Shown: positions 24,258 through 38,944 of the stretch, piece by piece | How positions within the stretch are numbered: position 1 is the stretch's first letter | How the letters are laid out: each line of letters starts with the position of its first letter | NCBI RefSeq assembly: GCF_000024205.1 | Contig: NC_013216.1 | Span: forward strand, 930,001-994,000 | Source: Desulfofarcimen acetoxidans DSM 771 | GTDB lineage: Bacteria; Bacillota; Desulfotomaculia; Desulfotomaculales; Desulfofarciminaceae | Length of the DNA stretch: 64,000 bases | Direction of reading: 5' to 3' | Position numbers and translations under genes: made by a program | Notes under the pieces: generated by a model | What the model saw: the letters and a program-made list of their open reading frames with translations, nothing else | Databases searched by the model: none | Told to the model about the DNA's origin: nothing

Positions 24258-25882
24258 ATGAGCCTTTAAAAGTCGGGCGGTCAATACCAAGGTTGGATGC
24301 GGAAGACAAGGCAGCGGGAAGAGAAAAATATGCGGCAGACTATTATCCGGAAGATTTCCTTGTCATAGGCATCAAGAGATCACCCTATCCACATGCGCGG
24401 GTTTTACAGATTGATTCCTCGAAGGCAAAAAGAATACCGGGTGTTGTTGCTGTGTTGACTCACCGGGATATAGCGGGTTCCAATCAACTGGGCATTATTG
24501 TGAAGGACCAGCCTGTACTGGCCCGAAATGTTGTGCGTTTCATCGGGGATGCCGTAGTGTTGGCTGTTGCGGAAAACAAAGAAGTTCTGGAGGAAGCGCT
24601 TGCTCAAATTGAGGTGGAGTATGAGCCGCTGACTCCTTTATTTTGTCCCCAAGCTGCTCTATTAGAAAACAGTGTAAAAGTCCATGCCGACTGGCAAAAC
24701 GGAAATATCCTTTTGGCAGGGAAGCTTGAAACAGGCAATGCCAAAGAGGCACTTGGGGACTGTGCGCACAAGGTGAGGGTTGAATTGCAACTGGGATGCC
24801 AGGAGCATGCCTGCCTGGAAACCGAATGCGGTGTGGCCTGGATTGAGGATGACGGTAATATGGTTATCACTGCATCCACCCAGAGTCCTTTCCGGGACCG
24901 GCTAGAACTGTCACATGCATTGGGGATACCACCGGATCGCATACGTGTTATAGCACCCTTTCTGGGTGGTGGCTTTGGCCGCAAGGACGGAGTATCTGTA
25001 CAAGCCTATTTGGCACTGGCAGCGTTAAACTCCAACGGAAGACCGGTAAAAATACAGTTATCAAGGGAAGAGAGCATTGCAACGGGGACAAAAAGACACG
25101 CAGCTGAGATTTGCGTAGAACTGGGTTGTGATACGCAAGGCAAGCTTTCGGCTCTTTGTTGCGATGTTTTGATGGACACCGGAGCCTATGCGTCACTGGG
25201 AGGGGAAGTATTGACATTGGGGATGGAACATGCCGGAGGTCCTTACCGTATTCCCAATGTTATTATTGAGGGCAAGGCGGTATATACAAATAACGTTCCG
25301 GCCGGCGCTTTCCGTGGTTTTGGCGTTCCACAAACCACAGCGGGAATTGAGCAGGCGATGGACGAATTGGCTAAAGTCGCCGGGTTTGACCCGCTTATAT
25401 TCCGGTTGGTAAATGCAGTTAAACAGGGGGAGAGAAATTCAGCCGGGGTGATTATGACCCAATCCGTCGGATTAACTGCCTGTCTGGAAACAGTAGCTGC
25501 CTGCCCTGAGTGGAAAGATCGCCAAAATTGGATAAACAGTGCGCCGCCTTTTACGCGGCGTGGTGTCGGTTTGTCAGCTATGCACCATGCTCAGGGATTT
25601 GGGCCTGTAATTCCTGACAATGCCAATGCCAAAATCGAGCTTGACCCAGAGGGCTGTTTTATCATTTATGTGGGTGTGGCGGATATGGGACAGGGCAATG
25701 CCACAACTTATCTGCAAATAGCAGGGGATATTTTAGGCCAGGGCTTTGACCGGCTGAAAATGGTTTTGCCGGATACCCAAAAAGCTTTGCCTTCCGGCTC
25801 ATCATCTGCCAGCCGCACAACATTTACCTTTGGGAATGCAGTTATCGGTGCTGCCAGACTTCTGTCGGGACGTATTATATAG
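24254..25882 (+). pseudogene. Xanthine dehydrogenase-family molybdenum subunit, 3'-truncated
   Basis: The 542 residues cover the N-terminal and central parts of a molybdenum hydroxylase large subunit (normally about 750-780): SIPRLDAEDKAAGREKYAAD, FIGDAVVLAVAENKE, QEHACLETECGVAW, PFLGGGFGRKDG, VPAGAFRGFGVPQ and the start of the Mo-pterin region MGQGNATTYLQIAGDILGQ. It stops just after SGSSSASRTTFTFGNAVIGAA, so about 200 residues including the catalytic Glu near the C-terminus are missing. It begins with ATGA overlap on the anti-sigma kinase, an odd partner for this enzyme. A sigma-factor gene starts 26 bases after the truncated end. It is unlikely to be active. Confidence 0.8.
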
Positions 25883-25907
25883 CTTCATAAGTTATAAGGA
25901 GGGCTAT

Positions 25908-26450
25908 ATGGGGAGTGTTGAAAAGACGTCGGATTTGAGTGCTGATTACGATCCGGTTGATTTTGCCGGGGTTTATGATTATTATTTATACCGCATATAT
26001 AAGTACATATGTTACCGTATTGGTAATCTGGACGAAGCTGAAGATTTAACCAGCAAGGTTTTTGAACTGACTTTGAAAAATATCAAAAATTATAAACCGG
26101 AACGGGCAACCTTTGCCACATGGCTTTATACTATTGCCAATAATACACTGACGGACTACCTTCGCAGCTTGAGCCGTTGCCGTTTTATTTCCCTTGAACT
26201 GGTGGACGGGGTGGCATGTGCCGGTCACGGGCCGGAGGAAGCAGCCATTTGCAACGAAAGACGGGAAGAACTTTTTCAGGCACTGTCATGTCTTAATGAT
26301 CGGCAGCGGAACATTATTAGCCTTAAATTTGCATTTGGGCTTAATAACAAAGAGATCTCTGAAATCACCGGGCTGACGAGAAGCAATGTAGCTGTTATTA
26401 TTTACAGGGCATTGCAAAGGATGAGATCCAACTTAGTTGTGAAGGAATGA
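25908..26450 (+). CDS. Sigma-70 family RNA polymerase sigma factor, ECF-like
   Basis: The 180-residue protein has region 2 (YKYICYRIGNLDEAEDLTSKV and TWLYTIANNTLTDYLR) and region 4 (LNDRQRNIISLKFAFGLNNK followed by EISEITGLTRSNVAVIIYRA), with no regions 1 or 3. The ATG at 25908 follows AAGGAGGGCT by 2-3 bases after the GGCT; an upstream ATG inside the truncated gene is ignored. It precedes the 52-aa double-glycine peptide by 10 bases. It probably directs transcription of the peptide export locus and may be the target of the partner switch just upstream, though ECF factors are not the usual targets. Confidence 0.9.
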   Translation: MGSVEKTSDLSADYDPVDFAGVYDYYLYRIYKYICYRIGNLDEAEDLTSKVFELTLKNIKNYKPERATFATWLYTIANNTLTDYLRSLSRCRFISLELVDGVACAGHGPEEAAICNERREELFQALSCLNDRQRNIISLKFAFGLNNKEISEITGLTRSNVAVIIYRALQRMRSNLVVKE

Positions 26451-26460
26451 TTTGCGAGAT

Positions 26461-26619
26461 ATGGATAACATAGAATTGGCCGAACGCTTCTGTAATGGTG
26501 AAATTGCACTTAACGATGATGAATTGGATGCCGCAGCCGGTGGGAATGCATTAATAGGTATTATATTGCAATTTATTATATTATATTTAGACATTTTTGT
26601 ATTTATTCGACATTCATAG
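26461..26619 (+). CDS. Small double-glycine leader peptide with hydrophobic core (candidate RiPP/bacteriocin precursor)
   Basis: This 52-residue frame is short and was found by eye. It begins MDNIELAERFCNGEIALNDD, then ELDAAAGG, then a core NALIGIILQFII... ending FIRHS. The segment LNDDELDAAAGG matches the end of Nif11/NHLP-type leaders (the two larger precursors here have ELTDDELEQVAGG). The core of 24 residues is almost all hydrophobic and membrane-spanning in character with a basic tail. Ribosome site is weak (AAGGA 14 bases upstream, GAG nearer). It lies 10 bases after the sigma factor and 16 bases before the substrate-binding protein, in the same strand as the exporter genes. Confidence 0.65.
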   Translation: MDNIELAERFCNGEIALNDDELDAAAGGNALIGIILQFIILYLDIFVFIRHS

Positions 26620-26635
26620 CGGAGGATATGTTGCC

Positions 26636-27778
26636 ATGTCAAAGGGTCATTGGGCAAAAATTTGGGGAATAGGTATTCTGCTGACAGGTGTTTTGCTCAT
26701 TGTTATATTTGTCTTGCATACAGGGTACTCGAATAAAAAAGAGCGGGGGGACATTGTTATTGGTGCAGCCTGGCCTTTTTCCTCTCAAAACGAGCTGTTT
26801 AAAGAAGGTGTCGAATTGGCTGTCGATCAGATAAATGCAGGGGGAGGGATAAACGGCCATAAGGTACTCCTGGTTGAGAAGGACGATAAAGGAACTGTTA
26901 CCGGCGGGATGAACGTTGCCCAGTCTTTTACGAAAGTTCCCAACCTGACGGCTGTGATTGGTCATAGGTTTTCTTATATTTCCATTGCTGCTTCATATAT
27001 TTATGAGAAAGCCGGTATCGTTATGCTTTCTCCCACATCTACGGCCCCTGAACTTACTAAAAAAGGATATAAATATATTTTCAGAGATATTCCCAGTGAT
27101 AATGAGATTGCCAGGCAGTTGGCCTTATATGCCGCCGGGCTGGGCCACCGGCATATGGTGATTTATTATGCTGATGATTCTTACGGAATTGGTTTGGCCA
27201 ATTCTTTTGAGGATTATGCACGAAAAGCCGGGATTGAGATAGTTGACCGGTTTTCCTACTACGCCGATCTAAGAGATCTGGACAGAATCAGTGCGACATG
27301 GAAAGCACTTGATTATGACGGTGTTTTTATGGCGCAATATATGCCTGACGGAGCACAGTTTATTGCCGATACGGCAAAGCTAGGCATATCCGTGCCGGTT
27401 TTTGCCGGTGACGCCATGGATACGCCGCAGCTTTACCGGATTGCCGGCAATGCGGCGGAAGGTACAGTGATTGGGACAATTTTTAATCCCCAGGATCCCA
27501 GGCAAGCAGTAAAGTCTTTTATCAATAATTTTTACAGCAAATACGGTAAAATGCCGACTCAATATGCAGCCCAGGGTTATGATGCTGTCAACCTGCTGGC
27601 GAAGGCTGTTAAAGAAACCGGTTCAGCGAGCCCTTCCGCAGTTGCACAAAAATTGCGGACATTCAAGGACGTATCCGGTGTGGCCGGCATTCACACCTTT
27701 GCTGACAACGGAGACGACATTGGCAAACTGGTTGTGCTGAAAACGCTTAAAAACGAACAATTTGTTTATATCCATTAA
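26636..27778 (+). CDS. ABC-type branched-chain amino acid (LivK-like) substrate-binding protein
   Basis: The mature part is a type I periplasmic binding protein: IVIGAAWPFSSQNELFKEGV, AVDQINAGGGINGHKVLLVE, AVIGHRFSYISIAASYIYEK, VMLSPTSTAPELTKKGYKYI (each segment shown separately). Residues about 8-28 form one membrane segment without a lipobox, so it is probably held by an uncleaved anchor. The ATG at 26636 has GGAGGA 9 bases upstream. No permease or ATPase of a Liv importer is nearby; the next genes are exporters. It may sense a ligand for the locus rather than serve transport (inference). The 380-residue length is normal. Confidence 0.85.
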   Translation: MSKGHWAKIWGIGILLTGVLLIVIFVLHTGYSNKKERGDIVIGAAWPFSSQNELFKEGVELAVDQINAGGGINGHKVLLVEKDDKGTVTGGMNVAQSFTKVPNLTAVIGHRFSYISIAASYIYEKAGIVMLSPTSTAPELTKKGYKYIFRDIPSDNEIARQLALYAAGLGHRHMVIYYADDSYGIGLANSFEDYARKAGIEIVDRFSYYADLRDLDRISATWKALDYDGVFMAQYMPDGAQFIADTAKLGISVPVFAGDAMDTPQLYRIAGNAAEGTVIGTIFNPQDPRQAVKSFINNFYSKYGKMPTQYAAQGYDAVNLLAKAVKETGSASPSAVAQKLRTFKDVSGVAGIHTFADNGDDIGKLVVLKTLKNEQFVYIH

Positions 27779-27798: not shown

Positions 27799-29193
27799 AT
27801 GACACAGGGTTTGTTCCGCAAGGTGGCGCTGGACAGGCTTTCATCCCCCGAACAATTGGACCGGTTAATCACGGTGACAACGACCAGGTCCTGGTTTGCG
27901 CTGCTGGCAATTGCGTGCATCCTTCTAACGTCTGTTCTGTGGGGTGTTTTCGGGAGTATCCCTACGAAAGTATACGGGCAAGGAGTTATAGCCAATAGTT
28001 TTGGCATCTACAACATAGTTAGCGGCGATTCCGGCCAAATTTCCGATATTCGGGTTGTGGTGGGAGACCATGTTAATAAAGGGGAAGTAGTGGCGAGAAT
28101 AAATCATCCTCAGTTGGCAGAGCAAATTAATGATTTAAAAATAGAACTGGAGCAGTTAAAAAAACTGGACGAGAACGGCATAAAAGAAGGTAATGATAAA
28201 AACATAGGGTCGGAATTGGCTGATTTGTTCAGTCTAACCCAAAAGATAACGGAAGCTAAAGCAGCCCTTATAAACGCAGAGGTTGATTATGAAAATGCCA
28301 TATCGGGTCTGTCCTATGATATACAAATGGCGGATAATAGTTTGGAACAAGCCCGGGTTAGTGAGCAGGGTAAAAAAAGTTATTTGGATAAAATGACCTC
28401 TCTGTACCAGAGTGGCGCTGTTTCTAAAAACGACTATGAAAACGCTAAAAGGGATTATGACTTGCAGCGTATGCTGGTACAGTCAGCCGAGCAAAACTTA
28501 AGTAAGCTGACAGCCGGACAGTGGCAGGACACGATTATTAAGTATAGACAAAATCTGGAGCAAGCTCAGCTATCTTTGCAGATGCTAAAAGAGCAATTCG
28601 CCACTACAAAGGCGACTAGAATTGCTGAAGCAGAAGATGAAGTAAAAAAATTACAGAATAAATTGATCACTTCCTCTGAAATAGCGGCGCAGGTGGACGG
28701 CCGGGTGGTCGAAATAAAGGTAAATAGGGGAGATATTGTTCAGTCTGGGACGTGTCTCGTTAGCATGGATCGCGAGGGCAGCACCATCAAACAGGAAGCA
28801 GTGCTGTATGTATCGGCTGAGGAAGGAAAAAAAATTCTACCGGGGATGGAGGCGTTGATTTCCCCCAGTACAGTGAAAAAGGAACAATACGGCTATATAC
28901 TAGGCAGAGTGACTTCGATTTCCGAATATCCGGCCACCAGCCAGGATATGATGCATACCCTGGGGAATGAAGGGCTGGTGACCAAGCTGGCGGGGGAAGG
29001 TGCATCCCTGGAAATGCATGTGGACATAACTGTGGATGCCTCCACTGTAAGCGGGTTCAAGTGGACATCTACCGGTGGCCCTCCGCAAAAAATCAATAGC
29101 GGCATACTTTGCGAAGGTTCAGTGACCATCAATAAAGAGCATCCCATCGGCATGGTTATACCCACGCTTAAAAGAGTTCTTTCCATATACTAA
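27799..29193 (+). CDS. NHLM bacteriocin system secretion protein, HlyD family
   Basis: This membrane fusion/adaptor protein links the ABC exporter to the outside. It has 464 residues: a short cytoplasmic start with LSSPEQLDRLITVTTTRSW, which is typical of the NHLM HlyD family, one membrane segment (ALLAIACILLTSVLWGVFG), a biotinyl-lipoyl-like half (GQISDIRVVVGDHVNKGEVV), two long coiled-coil stretches at about 110-290, the second lipoyl half (AAQVDGRVVEIKVNRGDIVQ) and a beta-barrel end. AGAGGTG lies 10 bases before the start. It is followed by the two ABC proteins of the same export system. Confidence 0.92.
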   Translation: MTQGLFRKVALDRLSSPEQLDRLITVTTTRSWFALLAIACILLTSVLWGVFGSIPTKVYGQGVIANSFGIYNIVSGDSGQISDIRVVVGDHVNKGEVVARINHPQLAEQINDLKIELEQLKKLDENGIKEGNDKNIGSELADLFSLTQKITEAKAALINAEVDYENAISGLSYDIQMADNSLEQARVSEQGKKSYLDKMTSLYQSGAVSKNDYENAKRDYDLQRMLVQSAEQNLSKLTAGQWQDTIIKYRQNLEQAQLSLQMLKEQFATTKATRIAEAEDEVKKLQNKLITSSEIAAQVDGRVVEIKVNRGDIVQSGTCLVSMDREGSTIKQEAVLYVSAEEGKKILPGMEALISPSTVKKEQYGYILGRVTSISEYPATSQDMMHTLGNEGLVTKLAGEGASLEMHVDITVDASTVSGFKWTSTGGPPQKINSGILCEGSVTINKEHPIGMVIPTLKRVLSIY

Positions 29194-29280: not shown

Positions 29281-31446
29281 ATGGGAAGAAAATATATGAA
29301 ACGGGCCAAGGTTCCTACTGTGCTGCAAATGGAGGCGGTGGAATGCGGAGCGGCCTCCCTGGCCATGATCCTGGCCTATTACGGTAAATATTTGCCCCTG
29401 GAAGAGATCAGGATTGCCTGCGGGGTTTCCCGTGACGGCAGTAAGGCCAGCAACATTTTGAAAGCAGCCAGGAATTACGGGATGGTGGCAAAGGGCTTCC
29501 GTAAAGAAACGGAATTCTTAAAGGATATGAAACTGCCGGTGATTATTCACTGGAACTTCAATCACTTTGTAGTTCTGGAAGGTTTCGACAAAGAACTTTT
29601 TTATCTGAATGACCCCGGCAGCGGACCAAGGTCAGTGCCCAAGGAAGAGTTCGACCAGTCTTTTACCGGCATTGTGTTGACCTTTGAACCGGAGCCTGAT
29701 TTTGAAAAAACCGGTAACAAGCCTAATATAGCGGCTGCTTTAAAAAAGCGGCTCAAAGGATCGGAAGCAGCCTTGACTTACGTTATTTTGGTGGGTCTGG
29801 CTCTGGTCATTCCGGGCCTGGTTATTCCTGTTTTTACTAAAATATTTATTGACGATATATTGCTGGGCGGGAAAGGGAACTGGCTGGTTCCCCTGTTGCT
29901 GGGTATGGCAATTACTGCCATCCTGCGGGGCTTTCTTACCGGGCTTCAGCAGTATTATCTTTTAAGGCTGGAAACCAAAATAGCCTTGAGTACTTCCGCC
30001 CAGTTTCTATGGCATGTGCTTTGCTTGCCGGTGGAGTTTTTTACCCAGCGTTCTGCCGGAGACATTAGTATGCGGGTACAGAGCAACGACACGGTGGCCC
30101 AGCTCCTGTCGGGCCAGTTGGCGACAAATGCCCTGAATCTGGTAATGACTGTATTTTATTTTGTTATTATGCTTCAGTACAACCTTTGGTTATCGCTGGT
30201 CGGCATCGCGGCTGCTGTTGCCAATATTTCCTATTTGAAATATGTTTCTCGCCGCCGGGTGGATACAAACCGCAAGCTGCTGCAGGATCGGGGCAAGCTT
30301 AGAGGTACCGCCATGTCCGGCCTGCAGATTATTGAAACCATAAAGGCTTCCGGAGCAGAATCCGACTTTTTTGCCAAGTGGTCGGGATACCAGGCCAAAA
30401 CCTTAAACGCAGAGCAGGAGTTGGGTGTTTCCACTCAATTTTTATCGGCTATCCCAACCTTTCTGACTACCTTGACCAATACCGTGGTTTTGGTTTTAGG
30501 CGGCCTTCTAATTTTCAGAGGAGAGTTGACCATCGGGGCGCTGGTTGCTTTCCAAAGTCTGATGAGCAGCTTTTTGGAGCCGGTAAACGGACTGGTTTCC
30601 CTGGGCAGCCGGTTGCAAGAAGTAGAAGGGGATATGAACCGGTTGGACGATGTTATGCAATACCCCCTTGATGAGCAGACGAAAGAAGACCTGCCGGATG
30701 ACGGCAGCAAGGATTTTCCTGAAAAGCTGGAAGGATATATCGAACTGCGTAATTTGACCTTTGGTTATAGCCGCCTGGAGCCTCCGCTAATTGAAAATTT
30801 CAGTTTAAAACTGTCCCCGGGCTACAGGGTAGCATTGGTTGGCGGGTCGGGGAGCGGCAAATCCACTATCGCAAAATTAGTCTCCGGAATTTGTAAGCCG
30901 TGGTCCGGGGAAATTTTATTTGATGAAAATCCGAGGGAATATATACCTCGTTCGATTTTAAATAATTCACTGTCGCTGGTGGATCAGGATATCTTTTTGT
31001 TTCAAGGGACGATTCGCGATAACCTTACCTTGTGGGACAAGACGGTGTCTGAATTTGACTTGATCCGGGCGGCAAAGGACGCCTGCATTCATGATGATAT
31101 CACCTCTAAAGCAGGGGGCTATGATCAACTGCTGGCTGAGGGGGGAAACAATTTCAGCGGTGGGCAGAGGCAGAGGCTGGAGATTGCCAGGGCATTGGCC
31201 GGCAATCCCTCAATTTTGATTCTGGATGAGGCCACCAGCGCCCTGGATCCGCTGACGGAAAAAACAGTGGATGAGAGAATTCGCCGTCGCGGTTGTACCT
31301 GCCTTATTGTTGCCCACCGTTTAAGCACTATCCGGGACTGTGATGAGATTATCGTTTTGGAAAAAGGCAAAATAGTGCAGCGCGGCACTCATGATGAAAT
31401 GAAAGATGTCGATGGCCATTATGCTGAACTGATCAAGGCAATTTAA
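29281..31446 (+). CDS. NHLM bacteriocin system ABC transporter with C39 peptidase domain
   Basis: The 721-residue protein cleaves double-glycine leaders and exports the core. Residues about 10-135 are a C39 peptidase with Cys in MEAVECGAASLAMIL, His in WNFNHFVVLEGF and Asp in FYLNDPGSGP. Residues 155-440 contain the six membrane helices. The ATPase has Walker A GGSGSGKST, signature FSGGQRQR, Walker B LILDEATSALD and the H-loop IVAHRLS. The start at 29281 follows GGGGGATGG. It is the enzyme expected to cut at AGG in the precursors at 26.5, 34.5 and 38.7 kb. It precedes its non-peptidase partner by 26 bases. Confidence 0.96.
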   Translation: MGRKYMKRAKVPTVLQMEAVECGAASLAMILAYYGKYLPLEEIRIACGVSRDGSKASNILKAARNYGMVAKGFRKETEFLKDMKLPVIIHWNFNHFVVLEGFDKELFYLNDPGSGPRSVPKEEFDQSFTGIVLTFEPEPDFEKTGNKPNIAAALKKRLKGSEAALTYVILVGLALVIPGLVIPVFTKIFIDDILLGGKGNWLVPLLLGMAITAILRGFLTGLQQYYLLRLETKIALSTSAQFLWHVLCLPVEFFTQRSAGDISMRVQSNDTVAQLLSGQLATNALNLVMTVFYFVIMLQYNLWLSLVGIAAAVANISYLKYVSRRRVDTNRKLLQDRGKLRGTAMSGLQIIETIKASGAESDFFAKWSGYQAKTLNAEQELGVSTQFLSAIPTFLTTLTNTVVLVLGGLLIFRGELTIGALVAFQSLMSSFLEPVNGLVSLGSRLQEVEGDMNRLDDVMQYPLDEQTKEDLPDDGSKDFPEKLEGYIELRNLTFGYSRLEPPLIENFSLKLSPGYRVALVGGSGSGKSTIAKLVSGICKPWSGEILFDENPREYIPRSILNNSLSLVDQDIFLFQGTIRDNLTLWDKTVSEFDLIRAAKDACIHDDITSKAGGYDQLLAEGGNNFSGGQRQRLEIARALAGNPSILILDEATSALDPLTEKTVDERIRRRGCTCLIVAHRLSTIRDCDEIIVLEKGKIVQRGTHDEMKDVDGHYAELIKAI

Positions 31447-31472
31447 GTTAACAAGAAATGTTGGTGGGTGTG

Positions 31473-34199
31473 ATGAAAATAAATCCGGACTATTTTTTTG
31501 CAAAAGGGACAAGGATTGTACTGGAGGGGAATAATCCTTTACTGATAACCGATCCGGGCAAGGTGTGGATGGTTGAGCAAGGGAAGGCAGTTGCTTTTTC
31601 TGTTCGGATTACAGAAGGTATTAATTTGGGCAAGAGAAGTTTTTTATCTGAGGTGGCAGAAAGGGGAGTCATTTTTGGCGTTAAGCCGGCAGGTGAGGAA
31701 CAGACGGCTTTGCTGTTGACAGGTTTGCCGGGAACCCGACTGCTGCAGATCGATCTGGCAAGCTTTAACCAATTGACGAAGCGGTCTGCTGACAAGGCTA
31801 TGCCCGCCCGCTTGCTTGGCGATTGGGTAAATGCTCTGGTCCAAGACACTGCAGCCGGAGAAATGCTTGAGATCAAGATTCTCCCTGCCACAGAAGAAGT
31901 GATCTGGGTTAAACATTCGACCTTCGGCGACGGGCTTATTACCTTGGATCAATTTCACAGTCTGGCCATGCAAACAATCATTGACCGTCGCCAAAAGCAG
32001 AAGCAGGCTGAAAAGCAGCGTTTTAAGGAAAAAGAGGAAAATAACCGGCTTTTCTTTGATAATGCGCTTAAGGGCATACTGTCTGTTGCGGATCCGGGAC
32101 AGGCCGGAGACGTGTTGGAAGATGATGTTAAAGATGATTCCCTGCTGGCAGCCTGCCGGCTGGTGGGCAGGGCGATGAAAATTGAGATTATTTCTCCCTC
32201 CCGGACCGGAGAAAGGATGGCAGCGAAAGATTTGCTTGGCAATATTGCCAATGCGTCGCATATACGAACCCGTCAGGTAGCTTTAAAAGGAGAGTGGTAC
32301 AAGCAGGACAATGGTCCCCTGCTGGCTTATCTGGAAGAGGACAACCGGCCGGTGGCCTTGCTTCCACTATCCCCGTCACAATATCGGCTGCACGATCCGG
32401 CCGGCAAAACCATTATGACGGTAGATGAACAAATTGCTGCCCGGGTAAAGCCTTTTGCAGTTGCCTTTTATCGCCCGTTTCCAAATAAAGCGTTGTCCTT
32501 GCGTGATATTTTGACTTTTGGGCTGGAAAACTGCTGGAAACGCGATCTGGCAACGGTGCTGCTGATGGGGTTGCTCGGCGGACTGCTGGGCATGGTTATT
32601 CCCATAGCTACAGGCATTGTTTTCGATACCATTATTCCCGGCGGAGATAAAGCACAACTGCTGCAAATTGCCTTTGTTCTTGTTGCCGGCGCTCTGGCCG
32701 GGTTCTTGTTTCAATTAACCCGCTCGCTTGCCATGCTGCGGCTGGAGGGGAGAATGGACGGAGCTGTTCAAGCAGCCGTCTGGGACAGGCTGCTCAGCCT
32801 GCCTGTACCCTTTTTTAAAGAGTATACCTCCGGAGAACTGGCTATGCGGGCCATGGGCATAAGCCAAATACGGAAACTGTTATCCGGGGTTGTTATTACT
32901 ACCATTATCTCCAGTCTGTTTTCTGTTTTTAACTTCGGGCTGTTGTTTTATTACAACTTCCGGCTGGCAGGAGTAGCCACCGTTCTGATAGTGATGGCTG
33001 TGGTTGTGGATGCAATTTTTCAATTCAGCCAGATACGCTGCCGTCGGCAAGGCGTTGATATTTCCAACAAAATTGCCGGCCTGGTTTTACAATTAATAGG
33101 CAGTGTGGCCAAACTCCGGGTTGCCGGTGCGGAAAAAAGAGCTTTTTATTTGTGGTCAAGGCAATTCACCGGCCTGAGAAATATTATCTTTAAAAGCAGG
33201 ATATTGGTCAACCGATTGGCTGTCTTTGATTCGGTTTTTCCAATTATCACTTCAATCGTTATTTTCTATTTTCTTGTTGGGGTTGAACACAATACCATGG
33301 GGGCGGGTAATTTTGTTGCTTTTAATTCAGCCTTAACCAGCTTTATAACCGCAACTGTTGCCTTATTCCAATCATTTAGTTCAATAAACGAGATTATCCC
33401 CCTGTATGAAAAGGTAAAGCCGATTTTGCAGGCACTGCCGGAATATGACGATTCAAAGAGTGACCCCGGGGAATTGACCGGTGCCATTGAAGTCAGCCAT
33501 GTTTCCTTTCGCTATAAGCAAGAAGCGCCGCTGGTTATAGACAACGTTTCCTTGCAAATTCAAGCAGGAGAATACATAGGTATTGTGGGAACCTCAGGCA
33601 GCGGCAAATCAACTTTGTTCCGCATTCTGCTGGGTTTTGAGAAGCCGGAATCGGGTCAGGTGTTTTATAACGGCCAGGCTCTTGATAATTTAGACATCCG
33701 CTCCGTGCGCAGGCAACTGGGAGTAGTCCTGCAAAACGGGCAATTGATGTCGGGAGATATTTTCACCAATATTGTAGGGGCCAATATTTACTTAACCATG
33801 GATGATGTCTGGGAAGCAGTCAGAATGGCCGGGCTGGAACAGGATATCAAGGCGATGCCCATGGGGATGCACACGGTGGTCAGTGAGGGAGTAGCCACGC
33901 TGTCGGGAGGACAGAGGCAAAGACTGCTGATTGCCCGGGCCATTGTCAACAGGCCTAAAATAATATATTTTGATGAAGCTACCAGTGCCCTGGACAACCG
34001 GAGCCAGTCTATCGTCAGTGAAAGCCTTGACCGGCTTAGGGCGACGCGGGTAGTAATTGCCCACCGGCTGAGCACTGTTATCAAATGCGACAGGATTATC
34101 GTGCTGGATAAAGGCAAAGTAATTGAAAACGGCAGTTATGAACATTTAATGGAGCGTGGCGGTGCCTTTGCAGAGTTGGCCAAAAGGCAGCTTGCCTGA
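31473..34199 (+). CDS. NHLM bacteriocin system ABC transporter, second permease/ATPase subunit
   Basis: The 908-residue protein has a N-terminal region of about 340 residues special to this family (a cyclic-nucleotide-binding-like barrel at 10-90, then a variable part), membrane helices at about 355-640 and an ATPase with GTSGSGKST, LSGGQRQR, IIYFDEATSALD and VIAHRLST. It forms a heterodimer with the C39-bearing subunit. The ATG at 31473 is chosen because GGTGGGTGTG lies just upstream; a start at 31458 is possible. There is no peptidase domain, as expected. Confidence 0.94.
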   Translation: MKINPDYFFAKGTRIVLEGNNPLLITDPGKVWMVEQGKAVAFSVRITEGINLGKRSFLSEVAERGVIFGVKPAGEEQTALLLTGLPGTRLLQIDLASFNQLTKRSADKAMPARLLGDWVNALVQDTAAGEMLEIKILPATEEVIWVKHSTFGDGLITLDQFHSLAMQTIIDRRQKQKQAEKQRFKEKEENNRLFFDNALKGILSVADPGQAGDVLEDDVKDDSLLAACRLVGRAMKIEIISPSRTGERMAAKDLLGNIANASHIRTRQVALKGEWYKQDNGPLLAYLEEDNRPVALLPLSPSQYRLHDPAGKTIMTVDEQIAARVKPFAVAFYRPFPNKALSLRDILTFGLENCWKRDLATVLLMGLLGGLLGMVIPIATGIVFDTIIPGGDKAQLLQIAFVLVAGALAGFLFQLTRSLAMLRLEGRMDGAVQAAVWDRLLSLPVPFFKEYTSGELAMRAMGISQIRKLLSGVVITTIISSLFSVFNFGLLFYYNFRLAGVATVLIVMAVVVDAIFQFSQIRCRRQGVDISNKIAGLVLQLIGSVAKLRVAGAEKRAFYLWSRQFTGLRNIIFKSRILVNRLAVFDSVFPIITSIVIFYFLVGVEHNTMGAGNFVAFNSALTSFITATVALFQSFSSINEIIPLYEKVKPILQALPEYDDSKSDPGELTGAIEVSHVSFRYKQEAPLVIDNVSLQIQAGEYIGIVGTSGSGKSTLFRILLGFEKPESGQVFYNGQALDNLDIRSVRRQLGVVLQNGQLMSGDIFTNIVGANIYLTMDDVWEAVRMAGLEQDIKAMPMGMHTVVSEGVATLSGGQRQRLLIARAIVNRPKIIYFDEATSALDNRSQSIVSESLDRLRATRVVIAHRLSTVIKCDRIIVLDKGKVIENGSYEHLMERGGAFAELAKRQLA

Positions 34200-34450
34200 G
34201 GAAGGGGTACAATAACCGGGATAGAATTCAATCTTACAGGTACAAATGGCAGGCGGTAAACCCTCTGCAATATAATGAAAAGGATTGGCAAAATGAATTT
34301 AGGAAGTTTTCCGCTTATTGTTTCGTACCCTGATGAATTTTTTTAAAAAATGTGTAATGAAAGGGCGCAAATAACGTATTAACATTTGAAGCTACCTGGG
34401 AGGTTCTGTGATGGGTTGGCTTACTTTTGATGATTAAGGGAGGAAAAACA
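34200..34450 (+). promoter_or_regulatory. Intergenic region before precursor 1, with a fossil leader-core junction
   Basis: The stretch between the exporter and precursor 1 holds no full gene. At 34244-34258 it has TGGCAGGCGGTAAA, identical to the Ala-Gly-Gly-Lys junction of both precursors, in a frame that reads QMAGGKPSAI and stops; this looks like the remains of another precursor. A tiny frame at 34411-34437 (MGWLTFDD) has GGGAGG just before its ATG. The segment TTGAAGCTA before it also precedes precursor 2. A promoter probably lies here but no clear box was found. Confidence 0.5.
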
Positions 34451-34705
34451 ATGTCAATTGAGCATGCGCGTGAGTTCATCAAGCGGGTAAAAAATGAAAA
34501 GGACCTTTGGGAACAGGCGGCATCTTTCCAGACCAGGGAAGAGCGGCGGCAGTGGGCTCAGGGACTGGGGTACGATTTTACCGGAGAGGAAATGGAGCAG
34601 GCTTCTTCGGAACTGACGGACGATGAGCTGGAACAGGTGGCAGGCGGTAAATGCTGCGGTTATACTTGTGAGAGTGAATATCAGTGTGGATATGATATTC
34701 CTTAG
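34451..34705 (+). CDS. Nif11-type leader RiPP precursor, copy 1
   Basis: The 84-residue peptide has a Nif11/NHLP-type leader (MSIEHAREFIKRVKNEKDLW at the start, a GYDFTGEEMEQA block, ELTDDELEQVAGG at the end) and an 18-residue core KCCGYTCESEYQCGYDIP. The core begins with its only lysine and has four cysteines and three tyrosines. GGGAGG lies about 6 bases before the ATG at 34451; upstream in-frame ATGs lack such a site. Cleavage after Gly-Gly by the C39 transporter at 29.3 kb is expected. The acyltransferase and two radical SAM genes follow directly, so this is their probable substrate. Confidence 0.92.
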   Translation: MSIEHAREFIKRVKNEKDLWEQAASFQTREERRQWAQGLGYDFTGEEMEQASSELTDDELEQVAGGKCCGYTCESEYQCGYDIP

Positions 34706-34829
34706 TAATGGGAATGTTCAAGTCGTTGAGGAATCGGCCAAAGTGGTCTATTGGGTACTGCCGGTTAATATAGACGAGTTGACTGATGAACAATTGGATG
34801 AGGTCGCTGTCGGTAGGTGTGGTTTATGA
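34692..34829 (+). pseudogene. Overlapping degenerate precursor-like frame
   Basis: A frame starting at the ATG at 34692, inside the end of precursor 1, encodes 45 residues that end NIDELTDEQLDEVAVGRCGL. The ELTDEQLDEVAVG part is clearly a Nif11 leader end with Gly-Gly changed to Val-Gly, followed by only Arg-Cys-Gly-Leu. It is best read as a decayed precursor fused out of frame, though a very short active peptide cannot be excluded. Confidence 0.5.
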
Positions 34830-34899
34830 AGTTGTTGGTTTTTGGCTGGATGGTAGCAGTGATTTTAAACCGCCGTGAGCGAAAAGGAGAAAAAAGCAA

Positions 34900-35766
34900 A
34901 TGGTTCCGGATACAACTGACGGTCTATGGGCAAAGGCTGTCCGACCGCGGTGGAACGTAAAATTTAAAACCAACCTGTATATTGTGAAAACGGCTGAAAC
35001 CGGGTCGGAAATAGAACAGGCGCTGCGGCTTCGCCACGAAGTGTTCCGGAGGGAACTGTTGGGTGCCCCTTTGCCGTCGGGCCTTGACATTGACCGTTTT
35101 GACCCGCAATGCGACCATATGATCGTACAAGCGGGGGATACGGGGCAAGTGGTGGCCACTTACCGGCTCAATCCGTCAGAGACAGGCGATTACTACGCCC
35201 GGCAGGAATTTGAAATGAGCGCGGTTTTGCACCTGGCGGGCCGTAAACTGGAAATAGGCCGGGCCTGTGTGGCTCGCGGGTACCGCAGCGGCGCGGTATT
35301 TACCTTATTATGGCGGGGTATGGCAGCCTACCTGCGGCAGGCTGAAATCCGGTACATGTTTGGCTGTTCCTGCGTGCCGGCCCGCATATCCCATGAATTG
35401 GCCCCGCTGTATCAGTATTTCCAGGCCCGCCATTTATCGCCTGATCATCTGCGCGTCCACCCGCTGTCCTCCGGAGCTGTTCCCGCCGTTCAGCTCAAGC
35501 TTGCGGTCGGCCGGTCGGCCGGAGACGCGGTGAAAAGGCTCATACCTCCCATCCTGCAGGTCTATCTGCGCAGCGGTGGCTGGATTTGCGGCGAACCTTA
35601 CTGCGACAGCGAATTTAATTCCTATGACTTCTTCACGCTGCTGGACGTGGCAGCGGCCAGTCCGGCTGCGCGGCGCTTTCTGGCGGGGCCGCGGCCGGCG
35701 GCAGTGGAAGAAAGGAGAGAGGTGTGTAAATATGGGCCAAATCGATCCTCGTCTTCATCTGTTTGA
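34900..35766 (+). CDS. OlsB/FeeM-like N-acyltransferase (GNAT superfamily), candidate peptide lipidation enzyme
   Basis: Enzymes of this group move a long acyl chain from ACP to an amine (ornithine, tyrosine or, in lipidated Nif11-type RiPPs, a side chain of the precursor). The 288-residue protein has the family blocks LRLRHEVFRREL, FDPQCDHMIVQ, VVATYRLNP, YYARQEFEMS, LEIGRACVARGYRSG and LLWRGMAAYL followed by RYMFGCSCV. GAAAAGGAG lies 10 bases before the ATG at 34900. It sits between the precursor and the maturases, and its stop overlaps the next start by 35 bases. The single lysine that opens the core is the likely target (inference). Confidence 0.82.
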   Translation: MVPDTTDGLWAKAVRPRWNVKFKTNLYIVKTAETGSEIEQALRLRHEVFRRELLGAPLPSGLDIDRFDPQCDHMIVQAGDTGQVVATYRLNPSETGDYYARQEFEMSAVLHLAGRKLEIGRACVARGYRSGAVFTLLWRGMAAYLRQAEIRYMFGCSCVPARISHELAPLYQYFQARHLSPDHLRVHPLSSGAVPAVQLKLAVGRSAGDAVKRLIPPILQVYLRSGGWICGEPYCDSEFNSYDFFTLLDVAAASPAARRFLAGPRPAAVEERREVCKYGPNRSSSSSV

Positions 35767-37093
35767 GGTTGATGGCTCCAATTACGCGGTCAGCACGGAA
35801 TACATGCGGTTTGCCGGGATCGATCCGGAGACGGCGGCGGTGGTAAGGCTGGGCGGGCCGGCTGAACCGGTCCTGAGCCGGCTGGGGGTCCCGCTGGAAC
35901 CTTGCGGACGGAAGCGGTTCCTGTTTGCGCCGCCGGACACTCTGGTATTGATGCTGACCTATGCCTGCAACATGGCCTGCCGGTATTGCTGCCAGGGAGA
36001 AATTCCTGATATCCGGGAAAACCAGATGTCCGAGGCAGTGTCGTGCCGGTCTGTCGACTGGCTGATCCGGAACTCGGCAGGTTCGAAAACGGTTAATATC
36101 GGATTTTTTGGCGGTGAGCCCTTGCTTAAATTTTCGCTGATGCAAAAAATTGCCGTCTACGCCGAACGGCAAGCGGCAGCCGCCGACAAGCGGGTGCGCT
36201 ACGGCATCATGACCAACGGCCTGCTGCTGACCGACCCTGTCATTGATTTTCTAGCTGAGCGGCAAGTCGAGGTTACCGTCAGTTTTGACGGGCCGCCTGC
36301 CGTACAAGACCGCAACCGGCCGCTGAAAGGCGGCGGGGGCTCTTTCCATCTTATTGCTGAAAAAATCCGGAAACTGCTGGCGCGCTGCCCGGACGCCACG
36401 CTCCGCCCCACACTCTATGCCGGCGCCGATCTTGACGAGGTGCTTCAAACAGCCCGGCAGCTAGGTTTCCGGCAGTGCCGCATTGAAAAAGTGTCCAGTT
36501 CGTTATTGCCGGAAGGGAAAAAAAATGACGAAGCGGCATCTTCCGGCCAGTTGGCGGCCCATTTGCGCCGCCAGGGCGAACGTTTTCTAACCGCTGTCCG
36601 GGACCGGGATGCGGCCGGATTGCGGCGGATCGCCGTGGATGGCGCGTTCATGGAGGGATTAAGGCAAATGTTCCATGCGGACTGGGCAGGCACGGTCCGG
36701 CGGCGTTGGTTTTCCTGCGGCACCGGCAGGCAGCTGTTGGCGGTGGCGGTTAACGGCGATTTGTATCCATGCCCGCGCTTCCTGGCCTTGCCGGAATACA
36801 GGGTGGGTTCGGTTGCTGAGGACGGTTTCCAGGGAGAACTGCACCAAAAAAGCCTTTTGATCCACAGCGAGGATTGCCGGTCCTGTTGGGCGCGTTATTT
36901 CTGCGGCGGCGCCTGCATTGTGGAACACTTGGGTGGTACCGGTTCAATTTTCCGGGTCAACCCGAACACTTGCCGCCTGCGGCGGGCCAGAATCGAAACA
37001 GCCGTCCGGGTGATTGCCGAATGCTCAGACGAGGATAAAGCGTTCTTGCAGGAGACCGGCGTTTTGCCGGGCCGGCTGGCGGTAAAAGCGTGA
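35732..37093 (+). CDS. Radical SAM/SPASM peptide maturase 1
   Basis: The protein uses S-adenosylmethionine and an iron-sulfur cluster to make radical crosslinks in a peptide. Its 453 residues start with a small domain (HLFEVDGSNYAVSTEYMRFA) of the kind seen in ranthipeptide and SCIFF-type maturases, then the radical SAM motif Cys79-x3-Cys83-x2-Cys86 (TYACNMACRYCC), GFFGGEPLLKF, and a C-terminal SPASM domain with CGTGRQLLAVAVNGDLYPC and EDCRSCWARYFCGGAC. The ATG at 35732 follows AAGGAGAGAGG. It overlaps the acyltransferase gene, and is followed by its paralogue. Thioether formation at the four core cysteines is the favoured guess. Confidence 0.9.
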   Translation: MGQIDPRLHLFEVDGSNYAVSTEYMRFAGIDPETAAVVRLGGPAEPVLSRLGVPLEPCGRKRFLFAPPDTLVLMLTYACNMACRYCCQGEIPDIRENQMSEAVSCRSVDWLIRNSAGSKTVNIGFFGGEPLLKFSLMQKIAVYAERQAAAADKRVRYGIMTNGLLLTDPVIDFLAERQVEVTVSFDGPPAVQDRNRPLKGGGGSFHLIAEKIRKLLARCPDATLRPTLYAGADLDEVLQTARQLGFRQCRIEKVSSSLLPEGKKNDEAASSGQLAAHLRRQGERFLTAVRDRDAAGLRRIAVDGAFMEGLRQMFHADWAGTVRRRWFSCGTGRQLLAVAVNGDLYPCPRFLALPEYRVGSVAEDGFQGELHQKSLLIHSEDCRSCWARYFCGGACIVEHLGGTGSIFRVNPNTCRLRRARIETAVRVIAECSDEDKAFLQETGVLPGRLAVKA

Positions 37094-37154
37094 CCGGTTG
37101 CCTGGCGTGATGCTGATTTCCGGCAAGGAAATGCAACAGGAGGGGATGAATGTC

Positions 37155-38633
37155 ATGTTGCAATGCGCAGCTGGCACTGTGGAAAAAAGCAAGCTGCAAC
37201 TGATGCCGTACCATCGCTTTGAGGTAGAAGGGCGGATTTACGCGGTAAATGCCGACCGCTTTTGCTGTAAACGGTTGGATGACAGGACGGTTGCCTTTCT
37301 TTCCGCGTGGGAAGGCGATCCCCGGGTCCAACCGGAGGACGACGTGCGCAGTGCGCTGGTAAAAATGGGCCTGCTGGTGGGGGACCAGGGGAAAACATGC
37401 CCGGACCCGGCCGCCGCCCGGCTGGAAAGGGACAGCCGGGCGGTGGCCGGGTGGCTGTCCACTGACGCCGCCCGCACTAGCAGCCTTTGTCTTATGGTGG
37501 CCCAGGAATGCAATATGGCCTGTGTGTATTGCTATGGCGACGCTGGAAGATACGGCGGCGGCGGGCTTATGACGGTGGAAACCTCTTGCCGGAGTGTCGA
37601 CTGGCTGATCCGCCACAGCGGTGGTAACCGGAAGCTGAATTTATCTTTTTTCGGCGGCGAACCTCTGCTCAATCTGCCGCTTATCCGGTGGACAGTGGAG
37701 TATGCCAAACAGACTGGTGAGCAAAACGGCAAGACATTTACATTTAGCATCACCACTAACGCTTCGTTGGCCGACGAGGCGGCGATTGATTTTCTGCGGG
37801 CCAACCAGTTTGAAGTCGTGATCAGTTTCGATGGGACGCCGGCGGCTCAGGACAAGCAGCGGCCTTTCAAAGACGGCAGGCCTTCCTATGCGGAGGTGGC
37901 GCCGCGGATAAAACAGCTGCTGTCCGCTTTTCCCTTGGCCTGCGGCCGGGCCACCTTGTATGGGGGGACGGAACCGGGAGAGGTCCTGGCGGCGATGAAG
38001 GAAATCGGATTTCAAAGCTGTCATCTGGTCCCGGCTTCCGGCTGCCTGCTGACCGGCGTGCCGGAGGAAAAAGCGCTTTTCCGCCGGGACCGGGAGCGGG
38101 CGGCCGATTTGCGGCGGGAGGCGGCGGCGTTTGTGGCGGCGGTGAAGCGGCACGACCCGGCGGAGGCCGCTTATCGCTTGAAGGACCGGGACTTGTCCCG
38201 CCTCACATCCATCGGCAGCGTGCCGTTCATAGTCCGCCGGCTGTTTTTTTGCGGCGTGGGGCGCAACTATTTAGCGGTGGACGTGGACGGCAGCCTGTAT
38301 CCATGCCACCGTTTCGTGGGCATGAAGGAATACCTGTTGGGCAGCGTCAGCGGGGAGGAAGACCCGCCCCGGGGCTTGTTCCATGAGAGCCCGGTTACCA
38401 AAAGTGAGGAGTGTCGGCAGTGCTGGCTCAAGTACGTGTGCGGCGGCGGCTGCACGTACACCAACATTGCGTCCGCCAGCGGGCCTTTCCGGCCCGACCC
38501 GACATATTGCCGGCAGTTCGGGCAGATGATGGAGACACTGCTTGACGCGGCCGGCCAGCTGACCGCTGAAGACAGGGAGTTTCTCTATCAGAACAACGTG
38601 GTTGCCCGGCCTCCGTGTCCCCTGGATTTTTAA
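37155..38633 (+). CDS. Radical SAM/SPASM peptide maturase 2
   Basis: This 492-residue paralogue of the previous protein has the same order: N-terminal YHRFEVEGRIYAVNADRF, radical SAM Cys119-x3-Cys123-x2-Cys126 (QECNMACVYCYGD), SFFGGEPLLNL, and SPASM cysteines in CGVGRNYLAVDVDGSLYPC and EECRQCWLKYVCGGGC. The start at 37155 is chosen because AGGAGGGG ends 9 bases upstream; in-frame ATGs at 37098 and 37146 are less well placed. The two maturases may act in turn, or one on each precursor. Both genes are distinctly more GC-rich than the neighbouring DNA. Confidence 0.9.
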   Translation: MLQCAAGTVEKSKLQLMPYHRFEVEGRIYAVNADRFCCKRLDDRTVAFLSAWEGDPRVQPEDDVRSALVKMGLLVGDQGKTCPDPAAARLERDSRAVAGWLSTDAARTSSLCLMVAQECNMACVYCYGDAGRYGGGGLMTVETSCRSVDWLIRHSGGNRKLNLSFFGGEPLLNLPLIRWTVEYAKQTGEQNGKTFTFSITTNASLADEAAIDFLRANQFEVVISFDGTPAAQDKQRPFKDGRPSYAEVAPRIKQLLSAFPLACGRATLYGGTEPGEVLAAMKEIGFQSCHLVPASGCLLTGVPEEKALFRRDRERAADLRREAAAFVAAVKRHDPAEAAYRLKDRDLSRLTSIGSVPFIVRRLFFCGVGRNYLAVDVDGSLYPCHRFVGMKEYLLGSVSGEEDPPRGLFHESPVTKSEECRQCWLKYVCGGGCTYTNIASASGPFRPDPTYCRQFGQMMETLLDAAGQLTAEDREFLYQNNVVARPPCPLDF

Positions 38634-38692
38634 CCATTGGGACAGTTGAAGCTATTCCAGGTTGAAATTTAAAAATGGAAGGAGGGAAAACA

Positions 38693-38944
38693 ATGTCAAT
38701 CGAGCATGCGCGTGAATTCATCAAGCGGGTAAAAAATGAAAATGACCTTTGGGAGCAGGCGGCGTCTTTCCAGACCAGGGAAGAGCGGCGGCAGTGGGCT
38801 CAGGGACTGGGGTACGACTTTACCGGAGAGGAAATGGAGCAGGCTTCTTCGGAACTGACGGACGATGAGCTGGAACAGGTGGCAGGCGGTAAATGCTGCG
38901 GTTATACTTGTGAGAGCGAAAATCAGTGTGGATATGATATTTAG
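38693..38944 (+). CDS. Nif11-type leader RiPP precursor, copy 2
   Basis: The 83-residue peptide is nearly identical to copy 1 at 34451: leader differences are minimal and the core is KCCGYTCESENQCGYDI, with Tyr changed to Asn at core position 11 and the final Pro missing. GGAGGG precedes the ATG by 6 bases. It lies 59 bases after the second maturase. Identity continues past the stop (TAGTAATGGGAATGTTCAA), so a segment of about 290 bases was duplicated. Confidence 0.92.
   Translation: MSIEHAREFIKRVKNENDLWEQAASFQTREERRQWAQGLGYDFTGEEMEQASSELTDDELEQVAGGKCCGYTCESENQCGYDI

Follow-up and report, generated by a model that had tools for sequence, protein, structure and literature searches.

The subject of this analysis is a gene cluster at positions 34451–38944 of a 64,000-nt stretch of DNA from Desulfofarcimen acetoxidans DSM 771 (contig NC_013216.1, positions 930,001 to 994,000, forward strand), referred to below as the window. 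This cluster is genuine, conserved and unusual, being a Nif11 radical S-adenosylmethionine (SAM) system for a ribosomally synthesized and post-translationally modified peptide (RiPP), accompanied by an OlsB-type acyltransferase that would attach a lipid to the peptide, presumably at the first residue of its core. The operon is read here as giving a radical-SAM-bridged, acylated and exported lipopeptide, an interpretation with about an even chance of being correct. Gene content, linkage, family membership, intact enzyme motifs and a Cys-X2-Asp/Glu pattern are the observations, all drawn from sequence, from which each chemical step, the acceptor, the acyl group and the function are deduced.

A first-pass annotation of this DNA had named the parts of the cluster. 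Open reading frame (ORF) and profile searches of the window recovered all of them in place, as follows.

34426–34699, + strand: first copy of a 274-bp direct repeat, holding precursor 1
34451–34705, + strand: Nif11 precursor 1, core KCCGYTCESEYQCGYDIP after Gly-Gly (GG) (TIGR03798, 76.9 bits, 1e-21; PF07862, 1e-13)
34716–34814, + strand: C-terminal third of an NHLP-family leader, a remnant (64% identity to a P. thermopropionicum-type NHLP leader, E 6e-10)
34900–35766, + strand: OlsB/FeeM-like N-acyltransferase (GNAT), the proposed peptide acyltransferase (PF13444, PF21926)
35732–37093, + strand: rSAM1, a radical SAM/SPASM maturase, with a 35-nt overlap with the GNAT gene
37155–38633, + strand: rSAM2, a radical SAM/SPASM maturase (TIGR04064; longest ORF from 37098, start at 37155 more likely)
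38668–38941, + strand: second copy of the direct repeat, 274 bp, 95% identical, holding precursor 2
38693–38944, + strand: Nif11 precursor 2, core KCCGYTCESENQCGYDI after GG (TIGR03798, 76.7 bits; best start the ATG at 38693, preceded by a ribosome-binding site)

Both leaders score above the TIGR03798 cut-off (76.9 and 76.7 bits vs 32.3), and Pfam and NCBIfam matches bear out the annotated arrangement, in which two Nif11 precursors with GG flank a GNAT and two radical SAM/SPASM proteins. The two precursors are near-identical, and each ends in GG followed by a variable core; the cores vary among genomes as well. An exporter with a GG peptidase is also present (C39 domain and NHLP models). It is very probable that this is a RiPP cluster making small sulfur-bridged peptides.

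Relatives were sought in 113 genomes from the class Desulfotomaculia, to which this organism belongs. The present genome is designated G000, and G and L numbers denote other genomes and their loci. The GNAT is encoded, at 75–79% identity, in four other genomes: G094, which we take to be P. thermopropionicum SI, and G097, G032 and G033, which are among Pelotomaculum UBA10960, Desulfovirgula sp. and Peptococcaceae HOT.CON.130 (the two lists are not paired in order). GNAT, rSAM1, rSAM2 and a Nif11 precursor occur together in all of the genomes that have this GNAT (5/5). The cluster is not a chance assembly, since the same genes recur together in four other genomes, and the linkage places the acyltransferase within the RiPP cluster, as the first-pass annotation had supposed. 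In four genomes the genes run GNAT-rSAM1-rSAM2-Nif11. Immediately 3′ of rSAM2, G094 has a truncated precursor, with an intact copy located past a third radical SAM gene.

The GNAT-bearing relatives have an additional radical SAM maturase, distinct from the other two (L011 5091–6578, L012 5123–6499, L010 9936–11357 and L147 1039–2463), with precursors such as VCCGQTCETDFCWGDRYCGYNG nearby; it was not found in the examined part of the window. A second, truncated copy of the GNAT gene is present in G033 (L013 9508–9972) and a truncated precursor at L011 6506–6649, signs of duplication and decay.

The cluster shares its leader type with the TIGR04064 Nif11 radical SAM systems (PMC3023750), and rSAM2 passes the TIGR04064 model, 'nif11-like peptide radical SAM maturase', with a score of 664 vs 518.7. 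Several TIGR04064 systems also have an exporter, sigma factor and binding protein, as here, and this includes some that are devoid of GNAT. Members lacking GNAT or rSAM1 were found in G026, G101, G155, G196 and G226; in contrast to the present cluster, their cores are much simpler, with at most two Cys and no CCGxTCE motif. Since Nif11/radical SAM systems exist without them, the GNAT and rSAM1 appear to have been added to a pre-existing Nif11/radical SAM/NHLP system.

Base composition provides additional data on the origin of these genes. The G+C contents of GNAT, rSAM1 and rSAM2 are 58–61%, vs 46–49% for the exporter and 42% for the window, and the GNAT-rSAM1-rSAM2 block is flanked by the 274-bp direct repeat, the copies of which contain both precursors. 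Taken together, the high G+C content and the flanking repeat suggest that the block was gained as a unit from a high-G+C relative and that the precursor was duplicated. Loss of the block through the repeat is conceivable as well.

The first-pass annotation had assigned the maturases to the thioether-forming kind, and comparison with ranthipeptide and sactipeptide enzymes agrees with this. In the present genome and in the four relatives, rSAM1 and rSAM2 have CX3CX2C and the complete SPASM set of Cys. TIGR04064, PapB, SCIFF/CteB and QhpD rank first among the profiles and the sactipeptide enzymes far behind, with scores of 202–248 for the PapB, SCIFF and QhpD models vs ≤85 for RumMC and StsB. The ranthipeptide enzyme CteB is the closest PDB structure both by sequence (E 6.5e-74) and by fold (5why, TMq 0.73, for rSAM1). 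The rSAM1 model opens with a three-strand plus helix unit resembling a RiPP recognition element (RRE).

The cores themselves are informative with respect to bridge position. Asp or Glu stands exactly three positions after a core Cys in 19 of 42 cases, vs 8.8 expected. Among distinct variable tails, Cys-X2-Asp/Glu occurs in 7 of 11 vs 1.7 expected (fraction of shuffles 0.0004), a statistic that is not fully independent because the cores are related. No enrichment is seen at offsets 1, 2 or 4, and the PapB-type Cys-X3-Asp/Glu motif is absent (offset 4 in 0 of 42). PapB joins Cys to Asp/Glu in CX3D and tolerates CX0–6D in vitro (PMC9413430). The excess of Cys-X2-Asp/Glu, combined with maturases nearest to CteB and PapB, makes Cys-to-Asp/Glu thioethers our best guess for the product, with predicted bonds from Cys7 to Glu10 and from Cys13 to Asp16. 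The closest maturase families, the fold and a fixed Cys-to-Asp/Glu spacing are those of the ranthipeptides (freyrasin, PapA/PapB; thermocellin, CteB), whereas CX2[D/E] rather than CX3D, the Nif11 leader, the paired maturases and the acyltransferase set the cluster apart.

SPASM enzymes are diverse, and on the conserved CCGxTCE motif the maturases might form epimers or links of another kind (sactionine, C-C or Cys-Tyr). That motif has an invariant start, Cys2-Cys3-Gly4, which lacks an acid at +3, a feature left unexplained by Cys-to-acid bridges. Such chemistry is considered somewhat unlikely, given the Cys-X2-acid excess in the cores and the identity of the nearest maturase families (PapB, CteB and QhpD).

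The GNAT matches PF13444 (3e-25; 89.2 bits, gathering threshold 22.4) and the FeeM family PF21926 (1.5e-10; 41.5 bits, gathering threshold 27). Its top NCBIfam matches are OlsB models, far under their cut-offs (129.8 vs 350 and 99.7 vs 320), and OlsF, GlsB and FeeM are the other top profile matches. All residues invariant over 23 aligned OlsB-like proteins are present. The AlphaFold model (predicted local distance difference test score 81) matches GNATs, acyl-homoserine lactone (AHL) synthases and FeeM (2g0b), the last having the highest query-normalised TM score in the match list (0.48); a PDB search with the sequence gave weak AHL-synthase matches only. Family, fold and invariant residues are therefore shared with the OlsB ornithine N-acyltransferases and FeeM. 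The GNAT differs from them in being at most 41–42% identical to other family members, in forming a clade of its own and in having RiPP neighbours.

A scan of 84,980 species genomes, made with two peptide patterns and not exhaustive, yielded 77 GNAT loci, of which those from Desulfotomaculia were the only ones with cluster genes in the vicinity. Near the 73 others, whose proteins are at most 41% identical, neither a relative of the Nif11 or radical SAM genes (tblastn) nor a GG-leader pattern was found. In a maximum-likelihood tree built by a quick method, the GNATs linked to RiPP genes, five in all, group as a single clade (support 100) on a long stem inside the OlsB-like family. The first-pass annotation had set against its own proposal the possibility that the enzyme belonged to a lipid clade with no RiPP neighbours; it is apparent that it does not. 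Among 398 genomes sampled from the phylum, OlsB-like proteins occur in 2. The other (G256) is encoded beside what was judged by eye to be a probable lipid-type acyltransferase gene, and no second OlsB-like protein was found in the present genome. A search for the PlsC motif, meant to label lipid genes, placed it near 13 of 75 GNAT relatives and was uninformative. Selenocysteine was considered for an in-frame TGA in three GNAT relatives and rejected, the codon being an ordinary stop near the end of the gene.

On sequence grounds, then, the GNAT belongs to the OlsB family and RiPP genes are the only partners that it consistently has here; because of that linkage it is proposed to acylate the peptide. 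It might instead act on a free amino acid or amine, as OlsB or FeeM do, leaving the RiPP modified by the radical SAM enzymes only and the acyl product as a co-regulated signal or immunity lipid. The ranking of OlsB, OlsF, GlsB and FeeM among profiles, the retention of the family's invariant residues, the absence of Lys from the cores of three genomes and the gene adjoining the G256 relative are consistent with this. It is nevertheless improbable in view of the strict linkage to rSAM1, rSAM2 and the Nif11 precursor in five genomes, the overlap of the GNAT and rSAM1 genes, and the separate, long-stemmed clade.

There is precedent, also cited in the first-pass annotation, for acylation of Nif11 precursors by GNAT enzymes: NpuN acylates Lys1 of the precursor NpuA (PMC13060382). 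By analogy, acylation of the residue 1 side chain is plausible here. The annotation had gone further in naming Lys1 the natural acceptor. Cores from G000 and G097 start with Lys and those from G032, G033 and G094 with Ser; one further G033 precursor has Val at position 1. As the Ser1 and Val1 cores are without any Lys, Lys1 is not the acceptor rule of the family; its ε-amine can be the acceptor in at most two of the five genomes. The selidamide pattern of family-wide Lys, or of Arg with a peptide arginase, is likewise absent. Arg does occur in Ser1 and Val1 cores, and no arginase was found among the cluster neighbours inspected (some of the neighbours were scanned), so that the ornithine route of phaeornamide (PMC9505594) is left with no visible enzyme. 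This leaves three kinds of acceptor: the residue 1 side chain where it is Lys or Ser, the N-terminal amine exposed once the leader is gone, and something other than a peptide.

The second of these corresponds to an N-terminal lipopeptide, as in lipolanthines and goadvionins, in which the GNAT would act only after leader cleavage, on the α-amine of residue 1. This would account for Lys, Ser and Val at position 1, and RiPPs lipidated N-terminally by GNATs are known (PMC13060382). It is nonetheless regarded as rather unlikely: the only protease seen is the C39 domain of the exporter, which couples cleavage to export, and a separate peptidase gene was not noticed among the ORFs of the cluster.

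The selidamide label itself stands only as an analogy. Like the nostolysamides and other selidamides (NpuA-NpuN; phaeornamide, PhaN), the cluster has a Nif11 or NHLP precursor with a GG site, export of the PCAT (peptidase-containing ATP-binding cassette transporter) type and a clustered GNAT (PMC13060382, PMC9505594). The characterised selidamides, however, are lanthipeptides, whereas radical SAM maturases are found here; Lys1 is acylated in NpuA but not conserved here; and NpuN, compared by description only, is a tandem GNAT nearest to TTR, in contrast to the single-domain OlsB-like enzyme of this cluster. The latter would be another solution to the acylation of Nif11 peptides.

The proposed pathway to a bridged and acylated peptide is as follows. 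The Nif11 leader would deliver the precursor to rSAM1 and rSAM2, the N-terminal RRE-like domains of which probably bind it. These enzymes would join Cys sulfurs to the Asp or Glu three residues on, with a third bond possible, such as Cys3-Thr6, at a cost of 2 Da for each thioether. Calculated monoisotopic masses for core 1 are 2060.762 unmodified, 2056.731 with two thioethers, 2294.961 with two thioethers and C16:0, and 2282.924 with two thioethers and 3-hydroxy-C14; the corresponding values for core 2 are 1914.689, 1910.658, 2148.888 and 2136.851. The GNAT would transfer a fatty acyl group, probably 3-hydroxyacyl from acyl-acyl carrier protein (ACP) as in OlsB, to residue 1, namely to the Lys1 side chain here and, in the Ser1 relatives, to either the side chain of Ser1 or the N-terminus once free. 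The C39 domain would then cleave after GG, and a complex of HlyD and both ABC proteins would export a small bridged lipopeptide, probably an antimicrobial or a signal.

Several results weigh against this pathway. For rSAM1, TIGR04064 is the top match, at a score below the cut-off (367 vs 518.7). In G097 the order differs (GNAT-Nif11-rSAM2-rSAM1, then the binding protein and exporter) and several core Cys have no X2-acid partner. The NCBIfam models nearest to the GNAT describe lipid enzymes that use free amino acids, no single acceptor rule holds across the family, and neither an OlsB-type RiPP enzyme nor an acyltransferase in ranthipeptide clusters was found in the literature searched.

It is proposed, tentatively and with somewhat less than even confidence, that the cluster represents a new RiPP subtype, thioether-bridged by radical SAM enzymes, in which an enzyme of the OlsB family (acyl-ACP type), co-opted from lipid biosynthesis, would acylate residue 1 irrespective of its side chain. 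Lipidated RiPPs are few, those found described being lanthipeptides, and no paper pairing a thioether-bridging radical SAM cluster with a lipid-type acyltransferase was found in the literature searched. New here are the Cys-X2-Asp/Glu spacing, the non-conservation of Lys1, the high-G+C block with its direct repeat and the OlsB-type enzyme as opposed to a tandem GNAT. A compact and seemingly horizontally mobile module (GNAT, two maturases and a precursor of 83–84 residues) could combine fatty acylation with radical thioether bridges and so yield engineerable lipopeptides from a ribosomal precursor, and the natural variation of Ser1, Lys1 and Val1 allows the site at which OlsB-type enzymes acylate peptides to be tested directly.

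The export genes, a binding protein and a sigma factor are situated upstream of the cluster, outside 34451–38944 and in the same direction.

25830–26450, + strand: sigma-70 factor resembling the extracytoplasmic function type, linked to the export genes (Pfam Sigma70_r2/r4)
26452–26619, + strand: small GG-type peptide gene, core NALIGIILQFIILYLDIFVFIRHS, a possible extra precursor or regulator (sequence and GG pattern)
26633–27778, + strand: branched-chain-type periplasmic binding protein, a linked part of the system (PF13458, 2e-53)
27799–29193, + strand: NHLP-system HlyD secretion protein (TIGR03794, 426.5 bits, cut-off 156.2)
29281–31446, + strand: NHLP export ABC transporter with C39 (GG) peptidase (TIGR03796, 1161 bits, cut-off 853; PF03412, 4e-37)
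31458–34199, + strand: second NHLP export ABC permease/ATPase (TIGR03797, 983 bits, cut-off 709)

Homologues of the sigma factor are near export genes in G094, G196 and G226 and near the cluster in G033. The small GG peptide had no family match in NCBIfam and Pfam profile searches. Three genomes have such a gene after the sigma factor (window 26452–26619; L146, ~5209, − strand; L142, ~8504, + strand), with a core that is hydrophobic in the window and zinc-ribbon-like in L146 and L142; its product may serve as an additional precursor or in regulation. The binding protein adjoins the NHLP exporter in G000, G097, G094, G196 and G226, the copies in the last four being 52–67% identical and located beside HlyD, and it may have a role in RiPP export as a receptor, immunity protein or sensor.

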